From assembly GCA_013822345.1 (NCBI GenBank), contig PNKH01000005.1:59329-123328 (forward strand): a stretch of 64,000 bases of DNA. The letters are read 5' to 3'. Numbering within the stretch: the stretch's first letter is position 1; every line of letters begins with the position of its first letter. This document shows, piece by piece, positions 2,520-53,137 of this stretch. The notes beneath the pieces were generated by a model. That model had not been told where the DNA came from. It did no database searches and was given only the letters and a program-made list of their open reading frames with translations. Both the position numbers and the translations under genes were made by a program. The stretch is from Isosphaera sp. GTDB taxonomy: Bacteria; Planctomycetota; Planctomycetia; Gemmatales; Gemmataceae.

Positions 2520-3491
2520 CTACTGCTGCTGCTGGCTCTGCTGCTGGCGGAACACCCGGTTCCGGGCCTGCTGGTTCAGCCGCTCGTTCCGCCCGCCGCC
2601 GTTCGCGGTCGCCAGCGCCGACCACGCCGGGGCGTCGGCCGGCTCCGCCAGGTCGGCCGGCACCTTGTCCGCCGGCTGAACGCCCACCGTCACCGCGATC
2701 GCCTCGTCCGCGTCCCCCTTCCACACCCCGCGGTTCGGCGGCACGTCCGAGAAGTCACGGCCGACGGCCGTCACCACGTGGTCCGCCCCGACCCACTTGC
2801 CGTGGGTCGGGTCGAGGTTCGCCCACCCGAGGTCCGGCCCGGCCCACACCTGCACCCAGGCGTGGGTGGCGATCTCCCCCGGCTGGTGGACGTACCCGCT
2901 GACGTACCGGGCCGGCAGCCCGCGGAGCCGGGCCGCCGCCAGGAACAGGTGGGCGATGTCCTGGCACACCCCGCTCCCCAACTCCAGCGCCTCCGACACC
3001 CGGGTGTGGGCCGCGGTCACCGCCTTCTCGTACCGCAGCCGGCTGCGCACCTCGACGGTGATCGCCTCGGCCACCGCCAGCACCGTCGTGCAGTCTTCGA
3101 GCGGGATGTCGGCGGCGAACGCCCGGACGGCCGGGGCGAAGTCGACCTGCGGGCTGGCCCGGAGGAACTCCAGGGCGTCGACGCTCGGGGGCGCGTCCGG
3201 GACCCACGGGACGGCCGCCAGCACCTCCGGGGCGGGGGTGCGGTGGACCCGGACGCACGCCGCCGCCCGGATCACCACCTCGCGGTGCGGGGGCGTGATG
3301 TTGAACAACTCGACCCGGTTGCCGAACCCGTCCCGGTAGGCGGTGACCGGGGCCGGCGGGGTGACCCGGAGCTTGTAACCGAGGACCGCCTGGTCGTCCT
3401 GCGACGGCGGGGCGGTCCGCACCTCGATGACGGACTCCGTCACCGGGGCCGAGTAGGTGAGCCGGGTCTCGTGGTCGATCCTTAGGAGCAT
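2520..3491 (-). CDS. Transglutaminase-like cysteine protease family protein
   Basis: 323 residues. An N-terminal beta-rich domain (about 1-115, beginning MLLRIDHETRLTYSAPV) precedes a transglutaminase core with the expected triad: Cys176 in GVCQDIAHLF, His210 in ATHAWVQV and Asp227 in NLDPTHG. The tail is glutamine-rich (QQQSQQQQ). The ATG at 3491 gives the canonical family start. Such proteins usually sit with an alpha-E protein and a circularly permuted ATP-grasp protein, a trio predicted from gene neighbourhoods to make or process peptide-like products. Here the alpha-E gene is present upstream, separated only by the four-helix-bundle cassette; no ATP-grasp partner lies in the group. It is likely cytoplasmic because no signal peptide is visible. 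The substrate is unknown. Confidence 0.92.
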   Translation of the reverse strand: MLLRIDHETRLTYSAPVTESVIEVRTAPPSQDDQAVLGYKLRVTPPAPVTAYRDGFGNRVELFNITPPHREVVIRAAACVRVHRTPAPEVLAAVPWVPDAPPSVDALEFLRASPQVDFAPAVRAFAADIPLEDCTTVLAVAEAITVEVRSRLRYEKAVTAAHTRVSEALELGSGVCQDIAHLFLAAARLRGLPARYVSGYVHQPGEIATHAWVQVWAGPDLGWANLDPTHGKWVGADHVVTAVGRDFSDVPPNRGVWKGDADEAIAVTVGVQPADKVPADLAEPADAPAWSALATANGGGRNERLNQQARNRVFRQQQSQQQQ

Positions 3492-4030
3492 TGCCAGTTG
3501 CCCGTGGCCAGTGGCCAGTTGTTGTTGACCTCGGGACCGCGCGGGGCAGCCGTCAACCTTTGGGAGGCGGGTCGGCGACCGGGACTCGGTCGTTCTGCTC
3601 ACCGATCCGGTGAAGGTACTCGTTCGAACTCGGCGCGAGCTCGTCGAGCAGCGGCTTCAAGGCCGCCACCTGGTCGGTGGTGAGGAGTTTCCGGGCGAAC
3701 GCCCGCCTCAGCCAGTGCTGAGTTTCATTGAGCGACCCGCGGGCGATCTTCACGAACCGGCGGTTCTCCTGGTAGCTCCCACGGCCGTGCCCTTCCGCGA
3801 TGTTCGCCCCGACGCTGCCGGCCGCCCGCACGAGTTGCTTGCCGATGGTATCCCGCTCGAAGTTCGGCCACGGGCGGACTATCTCCCAGATGGCGTCCGC
3901 CAACTGTTCGGCCCGTTGGTAGACCCGCAACTGTTGGAAGTTCGACTTCGCCATGGCGATCCCTCTCGCGGTCAATCTCTGATGTCCCCCCGCTGAAAAC
4001 AACTGGCCACTGGCGACCGGCAACTGGCAA
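3491..4030. mobile_element. Cassette: four-helix-bundle gene between 33-bp inverted repeats
   Basis: The segments 3491-3523 and 3998-4030 are inverted copies agreeing at 31 of 33 positions (the outer end reads TTGCCAGTTGCC, the inner end CCAGTGGCCAGTTGTT). Between them lies a single gene for a four-helix-bundle protein. The outer boundaries are exact: the left end shares one base with the ATG of the transglutaminase gene, and the right end abuts the stop codon of the alpha-E gene. That is what a cassette inserted into a tight intergenic joint would look like. No transposase is present, so mobility would need help from elsewhere. Mobility is inferred; the repeat structure is seen directly. Confidence 0.6.
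3553..3954 (-). CDS. Four-helix-bundle protein (23S rRNA intervening-sequence protein family)
   Basis: 133 residues. The sequence follows the family pattern of the proteins encoded inside 23S rRNA intervening sequences: an N-terminal FQQLRVYQRAEQLADAIW helix, then GKQLVRAAGSVGANIAEGHGR, then RFVKIARGSLNETQHWLRRA and a final helix. The length is at the family's usual 115-130 residues plus a short tail. The ATG at 3954 begins at the first helix. The role of stand-alone members is not established. This copy lies inside an inverted-repeat cassette that separates the alpha-E and transglutaminase genes, and it is not associated with any rRNA gene here. Confidence 0.9.
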   Translation of the reverse strand: MAKSNFQQLRVYQRAEQLADAIWEIVRPWPNFERDTIGKQLVRAAGSVGANIAEGHGRGSYQENRRFVKIARGSLNETQHWLRRAFARKLLTTDQVAALKPLLDELAPSSNEYLHRIGEQNDRVPVADPPPKG

Positions 4031-5002
4031 TCACGTCCGGAAGTACGCCTGGTGCACGTCCCGGCCGACGGCCGCGCACGTCTCCTGCACCCCGACCAGG
4101 AACTGGTCGACGCCGCGGCGGAACAGGTCGTCCACGTCCATGTACCGCAGCTCCGAGTCGAGCCGCCCGAGGTGCCGCTCGGCGTCCGTCCCGAACCCGC
4201 CACCCCCGGCCACGCACCGCAGCGACTCCAGGCACCGGGCCACCCCGAACCGCATGCTCCGGGGGAACTCGGCCTCCAGCAGCAGGTACCGGACCACCCC
4301 GACCGGGTCGACCCGCTCCCGGGCCTGCTTCTGGTACGCCTCGTACGCGGACGTGCCGCGGAGCAGGCTCGCCCAGTGGGCCGCCGAGAACGTCACGTCG
4401 GACCCGACCCCGGCGGGGACGAACGCGGCCGACGCGTAACAGTGGACGTTGATCACCCGGCTGAGCATGTCGACCCGCTCCAGGTGACGGCCGACCTGGA
4501 GGAAGTGGTACGCCTCGGTCCGCGGCAGGGTGCCGTCGACCAGGGCGGCGAACAGGACGCACTCCCGGCGGACGCGGTCGAGGAACCGGGACGGGCTGGC
4601 CGCGAACCGGGCGGCGGCGCGCGGGCTGTTCAGGAACAGGTGGAGCTTGTTCAGCTGGCTCCACGCCTCCCCGGACAGCGTCTCCTGGGTGCCGCGGGCG
4701 TTCTCCCGGGCGCCGGCGACGGTCTCCCGGATCGACACCCCGCCGGCCCGGCCGAAGGTCAGGAACCGGAGGACCGCCTCGCGCTGGTCGGGGGCGCCAT
4801 CGGGGTGCGGCGGGCGGGACCGGGCGAACGCCGCGCGGGCGCTGAGCATGAGCAGGACGTTGTCGAGCGGCCCGGCCCCGTCGGGCCGCGACCCCTCCTC
4901 GAGCTCCATCGAGAAGGCGTCGTCGAGGAGCCGGGCCAGGCCCTCGGCGCGCTCGACGTACCGGCTGATCCAGTAGAGGTTTTCCGCGACGCGGCTGAGC
5001 AT
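4031..5002 (-). CDS. Alpha-E domain-containing protein
   Basis: 323 residues, all helical in appearance, at the usual length of the alpha-E (DUF403) family. The start MLSRVAENLYWISRYVERAE and the later FLQVGRHLERVDMLSRV are diagnostic. The ATG at 5002 is the one that opens this signature. The family co-occurs with transglutaminase and circularly permuted ATP-grasp or amidoligase genes. Here the transglutaminase lies downstream in the same direction, after the four-helix-bundle cassette. The next gene upstream is a Gemmataceae hypothetical protein, not the expected ATP-grasp. The molecular function is not established; the neighbourhood suggests a part in peptide-bond chemistry. Confidence 0.92.
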   Translation of the reverse strand: MLSRVAENLYWISRYVERAEGLARLLDDAFSMELEEGSRPDGAGPLDNVLLMLSARAAFARSRPPHPDGAPDQREAVLRFLTFGRAGGVSIRETVAGARENARGTQETLSGEAWSQLNKLHLFLNSPRAAARFAASPSRFLDRVRRECVLFAALVDGTLPRTEAYHFLQVGRHLERVDMLSRVINVHCYASAAFVPAGVGSDVTFSAAHWASLLRGTSAYEAYQKQARERVDPVGVVRYLLLEAEFPRSMRFGVARCLESLRCVAGGGGFGTDAERHLGRLDSELRYMDVDDLFRRGVDQFLVGVQETCAAVGRDVHQAYFRT

Positions 5003-5058
5003 GGGCTCGCGCAGGTAAGGCGGAGAGGGGGACAATGTATCGGCGGGGCAGCCATCTT

Positions 5059-5112
5059 GTAGGGCGCGCACCGCGTGCCTCTTCGCAAGACGGCACGCGG
5101 TGCGCGCCCTAC
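5059..5112. repeat. Inverted repeat, 21-bp perfect arms
   Basis: Arms at 5059-5079 and 5092-5112 (GTAGGGCGCGCACCGCGTGCC and its complement) with a 12-base loop. The right arm contains the stop codon of the MTEAEWL-family gene (CTA at 5109-5111 on the + strand), so the hairpin would form at the very end of that transcript. It is a plausible terminator, without a T-tract. Confidence 0.93.
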
Positions 5113-14511: not shown

Positions 14512-14569
14512 GGGAGGGCGAGGCTCCTGCCGGGTCTACACTTCGGCTCGGCAGGAGCCTCGCCCTCCC
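14512..14569. repeat. Inverted repeat, 21-bp arms (GGGAGGGCGAGGCTCC family)
   Basis: Arms at 14512-14532 and 14549-14569 are perfect complements around a 16-base loop. This copy differs from the others of its family by CTCCTGCCG in place of CTCCCGCCG, with the matching change in the other arm: a compensatory pair, so the hairpin itself is what is kept. It lies 34 bp beyond the larE stop codon. Confidence 0.93.
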
Positions 14570-17769: not shown

Positions 17770-17886
17770 CATTGGTCCTTGGTCACTAGTCATTAGTCCT
17801 TGGTCGTTCGTCATCCGTCCATTGCCAGGCTCGGGGCTGCGTGGTAGCTGCCGGCCAGGGACCGATGACGAATGACCACTGACCAA
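17770..17886. repeat. Degenerate GGTCATTGGTC-type repeat pair between lolD and the permease gene
   Basis: The stretch 17770-17815 repeats TTGGTC/TAGTCATTAGTC units, and 17850-17886 carries the inverse (GATGACGAATGACCACTGACCAA). Together they form an imperfect inverted repeat filling the 120-bp gap between the permease and LolD genes. Similar units occur near 14466 and 14600. They are AT-richer than the surroundings, and one arm overlaps the likely ribosome-binding region of lolD. Confidence 0.55.
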
Positions 17887-23136: not shown

Positions 23137-23210
23137 TCGGTGTGGGAGGGCGAGGCTCCCGCCGAGCCGCGCGCCTCCGGCTCGGCGGGAGCCTCGCCCT
23201 CCCACACCGA
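23137..23210. repeat. Inverted repeat, 33-bp perfect arms (GGGAGGGCGAGGCTCCCG family)
   Basis: Arms at 23137-23169 and 23178-23210 are perfect complements with an 8-base loop. It starts 12 bp beyond the lysS stop codon. This is the best-preserved copy of the family also found at 2444, 14512 and 53062. Confidence 0.95.
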
Positions 23211-53061: not shown

Positions 53062-53137
53062 CGGTTTGGGAGGGCGGGCGAGGCTCCCGCCGGGCCGGAC
53101 GCACGCGGCCCGGCGGGAGCCTCGCCCTCCCGAACCG
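53062..53137. repeat. Inverted repeat (GGGAGGGCGAGGCTCCCG family, imperfect)
   Basis: Right arm at 53107-53137 and left arm at 53062-53097; they pair over about 31 bp, with a 4-base GGGC duplication in the left arm that would bulge. The core GCGAGGCTCCCGCCGGGCC is shared with the repeats at 2444, 14512 and 23137. It fills the joint between two convergent stops. Confidence 0.9.

Follow-up and report, generated by a model that had tools for sequence, protein, structure and literature searches.

The closest described systems are the intervening sequences of 23S rRNA genes and several families of heptanucleotide repeats. The intervening sequence of Coxiella burnetii is about 430 nt long, carries an S23p gene, has terminal inverted repeats that form a stem, and bears tandem heptamers (GACAGAT) just upstream of the S23p gene; sequences of this kind have long been suspected to be mobile or selfish (PMC4990558). 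GGGNATC heptanucleotide repeats were found in Xanthomonas and Nostoc, those of Xanthomonas forming convergent pairs in 70 and 75 cases (GGGAATC in Xanthomonas campestris with 70), and heptamers were generally seen without association to insertion sequences or transposable elements (PMC4692102). The TAACTGA repeats of Beggiatoaceae are found in ribosomal-protein operons, and a repeat-binding protein was considered as the possible mobile element behind them (PMC4679880). In addition, the P6b stem of the Nostoc tRNA-Leu intron is built on one of two 7-nt motifs, and entire stems have been swapped for the other motif in independent lineages (PMC4476775). In the accessible text of these reports, the heptanucleotide repeats of Cyanobacteria, Xanthomonas and Beggiatoaceae have no agreed origin or partner protein, and the 23S rRNA intervening sequences have no known way of moving.

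The window analysed here, a stretch of DNA of 64,000 nt, contains a cassette at 3490-4031 that bears likenesses to these systems. Its left arm (3490..3523, plus strand), delimited by inverted-repeat search and by reading of the sequence, is an array of the 7-mer GCCAGTT reading inward, with the units ATTGCC AGTTGCC CGTGGCC AGTGGCC AGTTGTT, and its right arm (3998..4031, minus strand) holds the GCCAGTT array in the opposite orientation, each arm being a tandem array of the 7-bp unit AACTGGC/GCCAGTT. The arms measure 34 nt each, are 94% complementary and lie 474 nt apart, and a 22-base arm pattern has four overlapping matches in the window, all of them in the two arms, against a shuffle mean of 0.00 (n=100). 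The first-pass annotation had proposed inverted repeats around a four-helix-bundle gene, and these repeats are real; it had taken them for one fixed terminal sequence, whereas they are arrays of 7-bp units, a tandem structure that it had missed. Between the arms lies a gene for a protein of 133 aa (3553..3954, minus strand), whose assignment as a four-helix bundle was confirmed by profile searches (PF05635, E 5e-31, 107.4 bits at a curated cut-off of 33.8; TIGR02436, 98.7 bits at a curated cut-off of 24). The outer edge of the left arm meets the ATG (complement of 3489-3491) of a transglutaminase gene (2520..3491, minus strand), a host gene outside the element, and that of the right arm meets the TGA stop codon (complement of 4031-4033) of the host gene alpha-E (4031..5003, minus strand); both contacts had been claimed before and can be read directly from the sequence. 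The name alpha-E is that of the first-pass annotation, the gene itself having no Pfam or NCBIfam match. No transposase or recombinase was found in the scanned cassette ORF, the one for PF05635, which matched only PF05635 and four-helix or hypothetical-protein families; the remaining listed ORFs of the cassette overlap it or the host genes.

Like the 23S rRNA intervening sequences, the window element combines an S23p-family protein, a terminal complementary stem and heptamers beside the gene, and the link to those sequences that had been drawn earlier, together with the idea of a non-transposase helical protein between inverted repeats, is borne out. Unlike the intervening sequences, which the accessible text describes inside 23S rRNA, the window element sits between two protein genes and not within a 23S rRNA gene, gene-less elements occur even in frame within genes, and the elements come in many 7-mer families. 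We regard it as fairly probable that the cassette at 3490-4031 belongs to a class of inserted elements bounded by inverted 7-bp arrays and carrying a four-helix gene only, whose protein would bind the arrays while host enzymes would insert the element. The known 23S rRNA intervening sequences look like the ribosomal-RNA members of such a class of hairpin elements.

The genome of the window has three PF05635 genes, all between inverted arrays of 7-bp units, the unit being GCCAGTT in the window, GGTCCTT at the second locus (L002) and ATTTCAG/ATTTGTG at the third (L003). The 7-mer of the second locus recurs in the window itself as a gene-less hairpin between two minus-strand ORFs, with its left arm at 17793..17826 (plus strand) and its right arm at 17853..17886 (minus strand), which the first-pass annotation had also overlooked. 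Its expectation that matching repeats would occur elsewhere in the genome held many times over: the window array pattern has 48 matches in its own genome and 0-8 in each of 40 relatives, the latter comparable to the reversed-pattern control there, so that the window 7-mer is expanded only in the genome of the window among the 41 genomes. The GGTCCTT pattern likewise has 110 matches in this genome versus 6 for its reversed control. Many of the arms found with the window pattern are paired within about 140 bp, leaving no room for a four-helix gene. The ten gene-less pairs that were read have one polarity throughout, the left arm reading GCCAGTT inward and the right arm bearing the complement, and have loops that look mutually unrelated. 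Two of these gene-less GCCAGTT hairpins lie in ribosomal operons, at rplN-rplX (L14/L24) and rpsM-rpsK (S13/S11), a third is embedded in frame in rsgA, and a fourth in a UbiD-family ORF, past the last domain recognised there. Besides the ten pairs, the genome holds further 7-mer arrays (e.g. on contigs C43, C37, C77 and C6).

The ten pairs are MITE-like, as they are short, multi-copy and have terminal inverted repeats matching a longer gene-bearing element. In REPIN/RAYT systems, the RAYT is a transposase. Similar to REPINs and MITEs, the short palindromic gene-less copies correspond to the ends of a gene-bearing copy that is less common; unlike REPIN/RAYT systems, the gene between the arms encodes a PF05635 four-helix bundle, not a RAYT transposase, and the ends are 7-mer arrays. 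We surmise that the gene-less hairpins were moved in trans, or are remnants. They outnumber the three four-helix genes of the genome, which, along with the apparently unrelated loops, would also suit an alternative in which the basic unit would be the gene-less 7-mer hairpin, produced when replication slips and templates are switched at palindromes, with the four-helix gene as a passenger that simply enters such hairpins or persists in them. We consider this alternative unlikely, although the number of units per arm varies as it would predict, with arms of up to 240 bp in one cyanobacterium (L076).

Against the gene as a mere passenger stands its presence between such arms at most tested loci in several phyla. 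Two sets were assembled: 41 planctomycete genomes chosen by kinship, in which PF05635 loci were found by profile (70 rows, reduced to 68 after the contig-edge fragment G003:C370 was dropped and two G022:C213 pieces of one gene were merged), and 80 loci found via similarity to the window protein (77 after L090, L118 and L133 were dropped for too little flank), the latter spanning Cyanobacteria, Planctomycetes, Acidobacteria, Chloroflexi, Bacteroidetes, a Verrucomicrobium, Magasanikbacteria and a Thiotrichales bin. Inverted arms were present at 118 of the 145 PF05635 loci, and the best period was 7 in 100 of these 118. In the planctomycete set, 56/68 loci have inverted arms (score of at least 14) and 44/68 also have a best period of 7; the corresponding figures for the other set are 62/77 and 56/77. 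Of the remaining 18 armed loci, 12 have a best period of 8 and four of 6; arm units of apparently 8 bp were noted at L047, L125, L128 and L136, and of 6 bp at L157 and L158. By comparison, arms with period 7 were seen at 1/29 ParE toxin loci from the same genomes (30 loci, with L201 dropped for too little flank) and at 1/360 random placements in the same loci, where an inverted pair alone occurred three times in 360. No inverted arms at a score of at least 14 were found at 27 of the 145 PF05635 loci, which counts against our main explanation. The inward-reading strand of the arms has more G than C in 107 of the 118 armed loci and more C than G in nine. The arm-gene-arm anatomy in several phyla, as well as the gene-less hairpins sharing 7-mer and polarity within a genome, are direct observations.

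The same anatomy was observed on plasmids. Two four-helix members matched 18 and 33 of 72,556 plasmid records, respectively; nine of the 18 were fetched, and viral contigs gave one further locus. Nine of these ten plasmid or viral loci, among which two pairs represent the same block on sister plasmids, have an inverted pair with a score of at least 15, with 7-mer arrays visible by eye, the sole exception being the plasmid locus L429 with no inverted pair. One cyanobacterial member had no match in 50,697 phage records; this result, the plasmid record counts and the armless locus L429 weigh against our main explanation.

The plasmids also allow the same junctions to be compared with and without an element, and thereby show insertion. 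One operon is conserved among plasmids of Nostoc. Its overlapping stop-start junction GGTAATGGGATTTG is uninterrupted in L436, L438, L425 and L441, and three other loci have slightly different junctions at this position that are likewise empty, while in L442 (Nostoc ATCC 53789) a four-helix element with GGGAAAA-type arms splits the junction, with a tail of about 36 nt outside the right arm. One gene upstream, the neighbouring genes are 3 nt apart in L436-L439 and L442, and another four-helix element with GGAGTCA arms lies between them in L425, L426 and L441. Two different four-helix elements have therefore entered two neighbouring junctions of one Nostoc operon, and no gene was broken. At a third site, behind an integrase gene, the element is present on two Calothrix plasmids sharing the whole block, and a 3-nt gap is found in Tolypothrix, Aulosira and Nostoc carneum. 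A fourth four-helix element lies in the CRISPR type I-D operon of Anabaena 90; a Dolichospermum plasmid with aligned flanks 98.9% identical to it has no element there and, by eye, a different palindrome. In Anabaena 90 (pANA02, L431 2900-2990), the right arm is apparently read as part of the annotated Cas4 N-terminus, replacing the start seen in Dolichospermum (L432). Besides, a second gene of the L442 type occurs in the same strain on another plasmid (L466 2001-2679, pieces 82.8% identical); about 180 bp divide it into two parts, and by eye it has similar repeats on either side. At the empty plasmid junctions, arms and gene are missing together, which again disfavours hairpins that merely picked up a gene.

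These filled and empty sites lend support to the earlier reading of the window sequence as an inserted cassette. A relative without the cassette was found as well: the same-genus genome G016 (locus L163), with an alpha-E 63% identical, has the alpha-E/transglutaminase pair alone. In G016, the transglutaminase ATG and the alpha-E stop are separated by 202 nt, within which lies another inverted pair, of 20 bp and not built as a 7-mer array; this genome hence demonstrates the gene pair without the cassette and not the edges of insertion. Among the 41 genomes, only G016 adds a full-length alpha-E match, and a clean empty site for the window cassette was not found. In view of the inverted pair in G016, insertions of other kinds may also be drawn to the alpha-E/transglutaminase junction.

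Terminal inverted repeats and MITE-like gene-less copies might also be taken to indicate that a known transposase (e.g. IS200/IS605-like or DDE) moves the arms as its terminal inverted repeats, with the four-helix gene as cargo. This appears very improbable to us, given that a constant target duplication was not found at three plasmid sites (possible duplications being ATG, 3 bp, at the first and TTCTA, 5 bp, at the second, with none clear at the third) and that the arms are 7-mer arrays which differ between families. The lack of a constant duplication also tells against our main explanation. Most likely, the element inserts without encoding its own recombinase and ends in 7-mer arrays. The first-pass annotation had gone further and envisaged a helical protein moving between inverted repeats; its carriage between such repeats stands, while movement through the activity of the protein itself finds no support in a catalytic motif known to us or in a constant target duplication, and gene-less copies exceed gene-bearing ones in the genome of the window.

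What lies between the arms is not stable. Two Nostocales sites were followed, with 31 genomes searched for each. At the first, 28 genomes have both flanks, and the four-helix gene is in one orientation in eight, inverted in six and absent from 14; in the gene-less genomes, the arrays look similar by eye and enclose other sequence or nothing, and no armless genome was seen, all 28 keeping 7-mer arms or similar arrays by eye. At the second, both flanks are present in 17 of the 30 fetched loci and the gene in 15 of these 17, always oriented alike; in L411 (G068), the flanks are 252 nt apart with neither a gene nor clear 7-mer arms between them, and L419 (G063) has an apparent gene remnant. The four-helix gene is thus inverted and lost between the arms. 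Such swapping, inversion and loss of content at the first site is in line with hairpins as the primary unit and the gene as their passenger. Since the two sites are occupied in many genomes, movement of the element may be rare, a point against our main explanation.

With regard to specificity, the 7-mer tends to follow the protein clade, another point that tells against a passenger gene. Among 87 loci (those of the 118 usable proteins with period-7 arms), protein identity and 7-mer similarity correlate with a Mantel r of 0.56 (0/2000 permutations), and in the 42 planctomycete loci alone with an r of 0.30 (0/2000 permutations). Because arms and gene travel together, covariation can stem from shared descent, and part of the correlation must do so. 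In cross-phylum pairs (n=390), however, where the proteins are 64% identical and third codon positions agree at 0.24, 4.56 of the 7 bases are shared, compared with 3.32/7 for other clades and 3.75/7 for shuffled letters; this modest excess would speak against descent alone. On the basis of the covariation, we infer that the protein recognises the 7-mer and likely binds the arrays of its own arms.

The protein sequences contain near-invariant polar positions, namely E70 (1.00), S40 (0.99), Q33 (0.98), N44 (0.97), R36 (0.92) and E47 (0.91) across the 118 proteins, numbered as in the matched region. To our knowledge, the PF05635 family has no catalytic motif. Avd of diversity-generating retroelements is a four-helix bundle related to PF05635 that works with a reverse transcriptase. 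The window protein is a four-helix bundle as well, but no reverse transcriptase was found among its scanned neighbours, the transglutaminase and a protein without a Pfam match. Its nearest solved structure is 2gsc (XCC0516, E 3e-9), and the S23p structure of Xanthomonas campestris is a homopentamer (PMC4990558). Xanthomonas campestris, the species bearing GGGAATC, also encodes a member of the four-helix family, XCC0516. Similar to the elements described here, the published heptanucleotide repeats are 7-bp tandem units in mostly intergenic positions; unlike them, they are without a tie to a four-helix protein in the accessible text of the two reports (PMC4692102, PMC4679880). The four-helix protein is a candidate for the repeat-binding mobile element considered for the TAACTGA repeats.

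Ribosomal operons stand out among the sites of the gene-less hairpins. Within the genus, 13 of 17 genomes have a period-7 hairpin at the rplN-rplX junction, each scoring above all 50 letter shuffles, and these 13 hairpins are of about seven kinds of 7-mer by eye; no period-7 hairpin was found at this junction in G011, G012, G017 and G018. Outside the genus, 0/9 measurable gaps (from 13 loci) have one, five of the gaps being at most 23 nt long. The in-frame rsgA position has a period-7 hairpin that passes the scan in 5/18 genus loci, with differing 7-mers, and L288 and L289 have a 9-residue linker only. Within 1.5 kb of rplX, 27 period-7 hairpins were counted in 54 kb (17 genus genomes; 12/17 loci, at several junctions), whereas other stretches from nine genus genomes, 1477 kb in total, gave 12, which corresponds to a roughly 60-fold higher density around rplX; the other stretches include the window, are first or spaced contig pieces and not a random draw, and omit the G000 stretches of C7 and C10, which had been picked for known matches. 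Chance pairing of GC-rich sequence may account for part of these 12 hairpins. Two period-7 hairpins were seen in 94 kb of ParE neighbourhoods, and one in 43 kb around rplX outside the genus. The variation of the hairpin at rplN-rplX between genomes of the genus resembles the stem swaps in Nostoc P6b, a stem which, in the accessible text, is described as an intron variant with no protein gene reported (PMC4476775).

The enrichment around rplX, and the fact that the hairpins which were read sit flush with stop and start codons, would also be expected if the hairpins were retained for function, as mRNA stems at stop-start junctions that set the stability or translation of the neighbouring genes with the four-helix protein as a regulator, mobility being incidental. 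A regulatory role has indeed been proposed for the TAACTGA repeats in ribosomal operons (PMC4679880). Nevertheless, the 7-mer at the rplN-rplX junction varies by genome and is missing in four of 17, and rsgA and a UbiD-family gene contain in-frame hairpins, for which a role of this kind would be superfluous, so that we hold this explanation to be quite unlikely. Selection for harmless or useful sites could equally yield the concentration at rplX.

Returning to mobile hairpins served by the four-helix protein, the gene-less relatives give a mixed picture. Of the three genus genomes without a four-helix gene, two have no period-7 hairpins in 375 kb, which does not fit hairpins that grow independently of the gene; the third, G004, has hairpins in spite of having no PF05635 match, and counts against our main explanation. 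In several relatives, the rplN-rplX hairpin is by eye unlike the arms of any resident four-helix gene. As the match between genome hairpins and resident genes (by eye) is only partly seen, mobilisation in trans remains an inference.

We propose that host enzymes would cut and join the DNA, with the bound four-helix protein helping them to insert the element, and that the targets would probably be transcribed gene junctions. The concentration at rplX, together with the published 7-mer stems in the Coxiella 23S rRNA and the Nostoc tRNA-Leu intron, suggests abundant transcripts or heavily transcribed DNA as targets, and leads us to guess that insertion may be coupled to transcription or proceed via RNA. 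The predicted RNA fold of the window cassette has a z of -6.46; the arms would pair in RNA as one long stem, which could account for the tolerated insertion. A bolder and more tentative reading, which we put forward as possible, is that of a transposase-free mobile class in which a pentameric four-helix protein would recognise its own 7-bp arrays and drive hairpins, whether or not they contain the gene, into strongly transcribed RNAs or the corresponding genes, such as ribosomal-protein operons, 23S rRNA and the tRNA-Leu intron, making heptanucleotide repeats and 23S intervening sequences one phenomenon. Hairpin elements are probably a little-recognised kind of mobile element that would tie together several unexplained bacterial repeats. 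If so, a mobile element without a known recombinase would enter stop-start junctions, ribosomal operons and even reading frames while leaving genes unbroken, and a shared element, a named protein and a clade-following 7-mer make both the origin of the heptamers and the movement of the intervening sequences testable. Outside rRNA, no description of a four-helix gene in inverted 7-mer arrays as an element was found in searches of the open-access full-text literature, subscription papers being mostly outside the scope of that search.

Two further palindromes were noted in the window. The palindrome TAGGGCGCGCACCGCGTGC, with a 14-nt spacer, occurs as one pair at 5060-5111, upstream of alpha-E. Another family of palindromic repeats, with the sequence GGGCGAGGCTCC.GCCGAGC and its complement, forms four pairs at 2448-2499, 14516-14565, 23148-23199 and 53076-53127, with nine matches in the window compared with 0.35 expected, and a palindrome similar to this family is also present within the four-helix cassette of L002.
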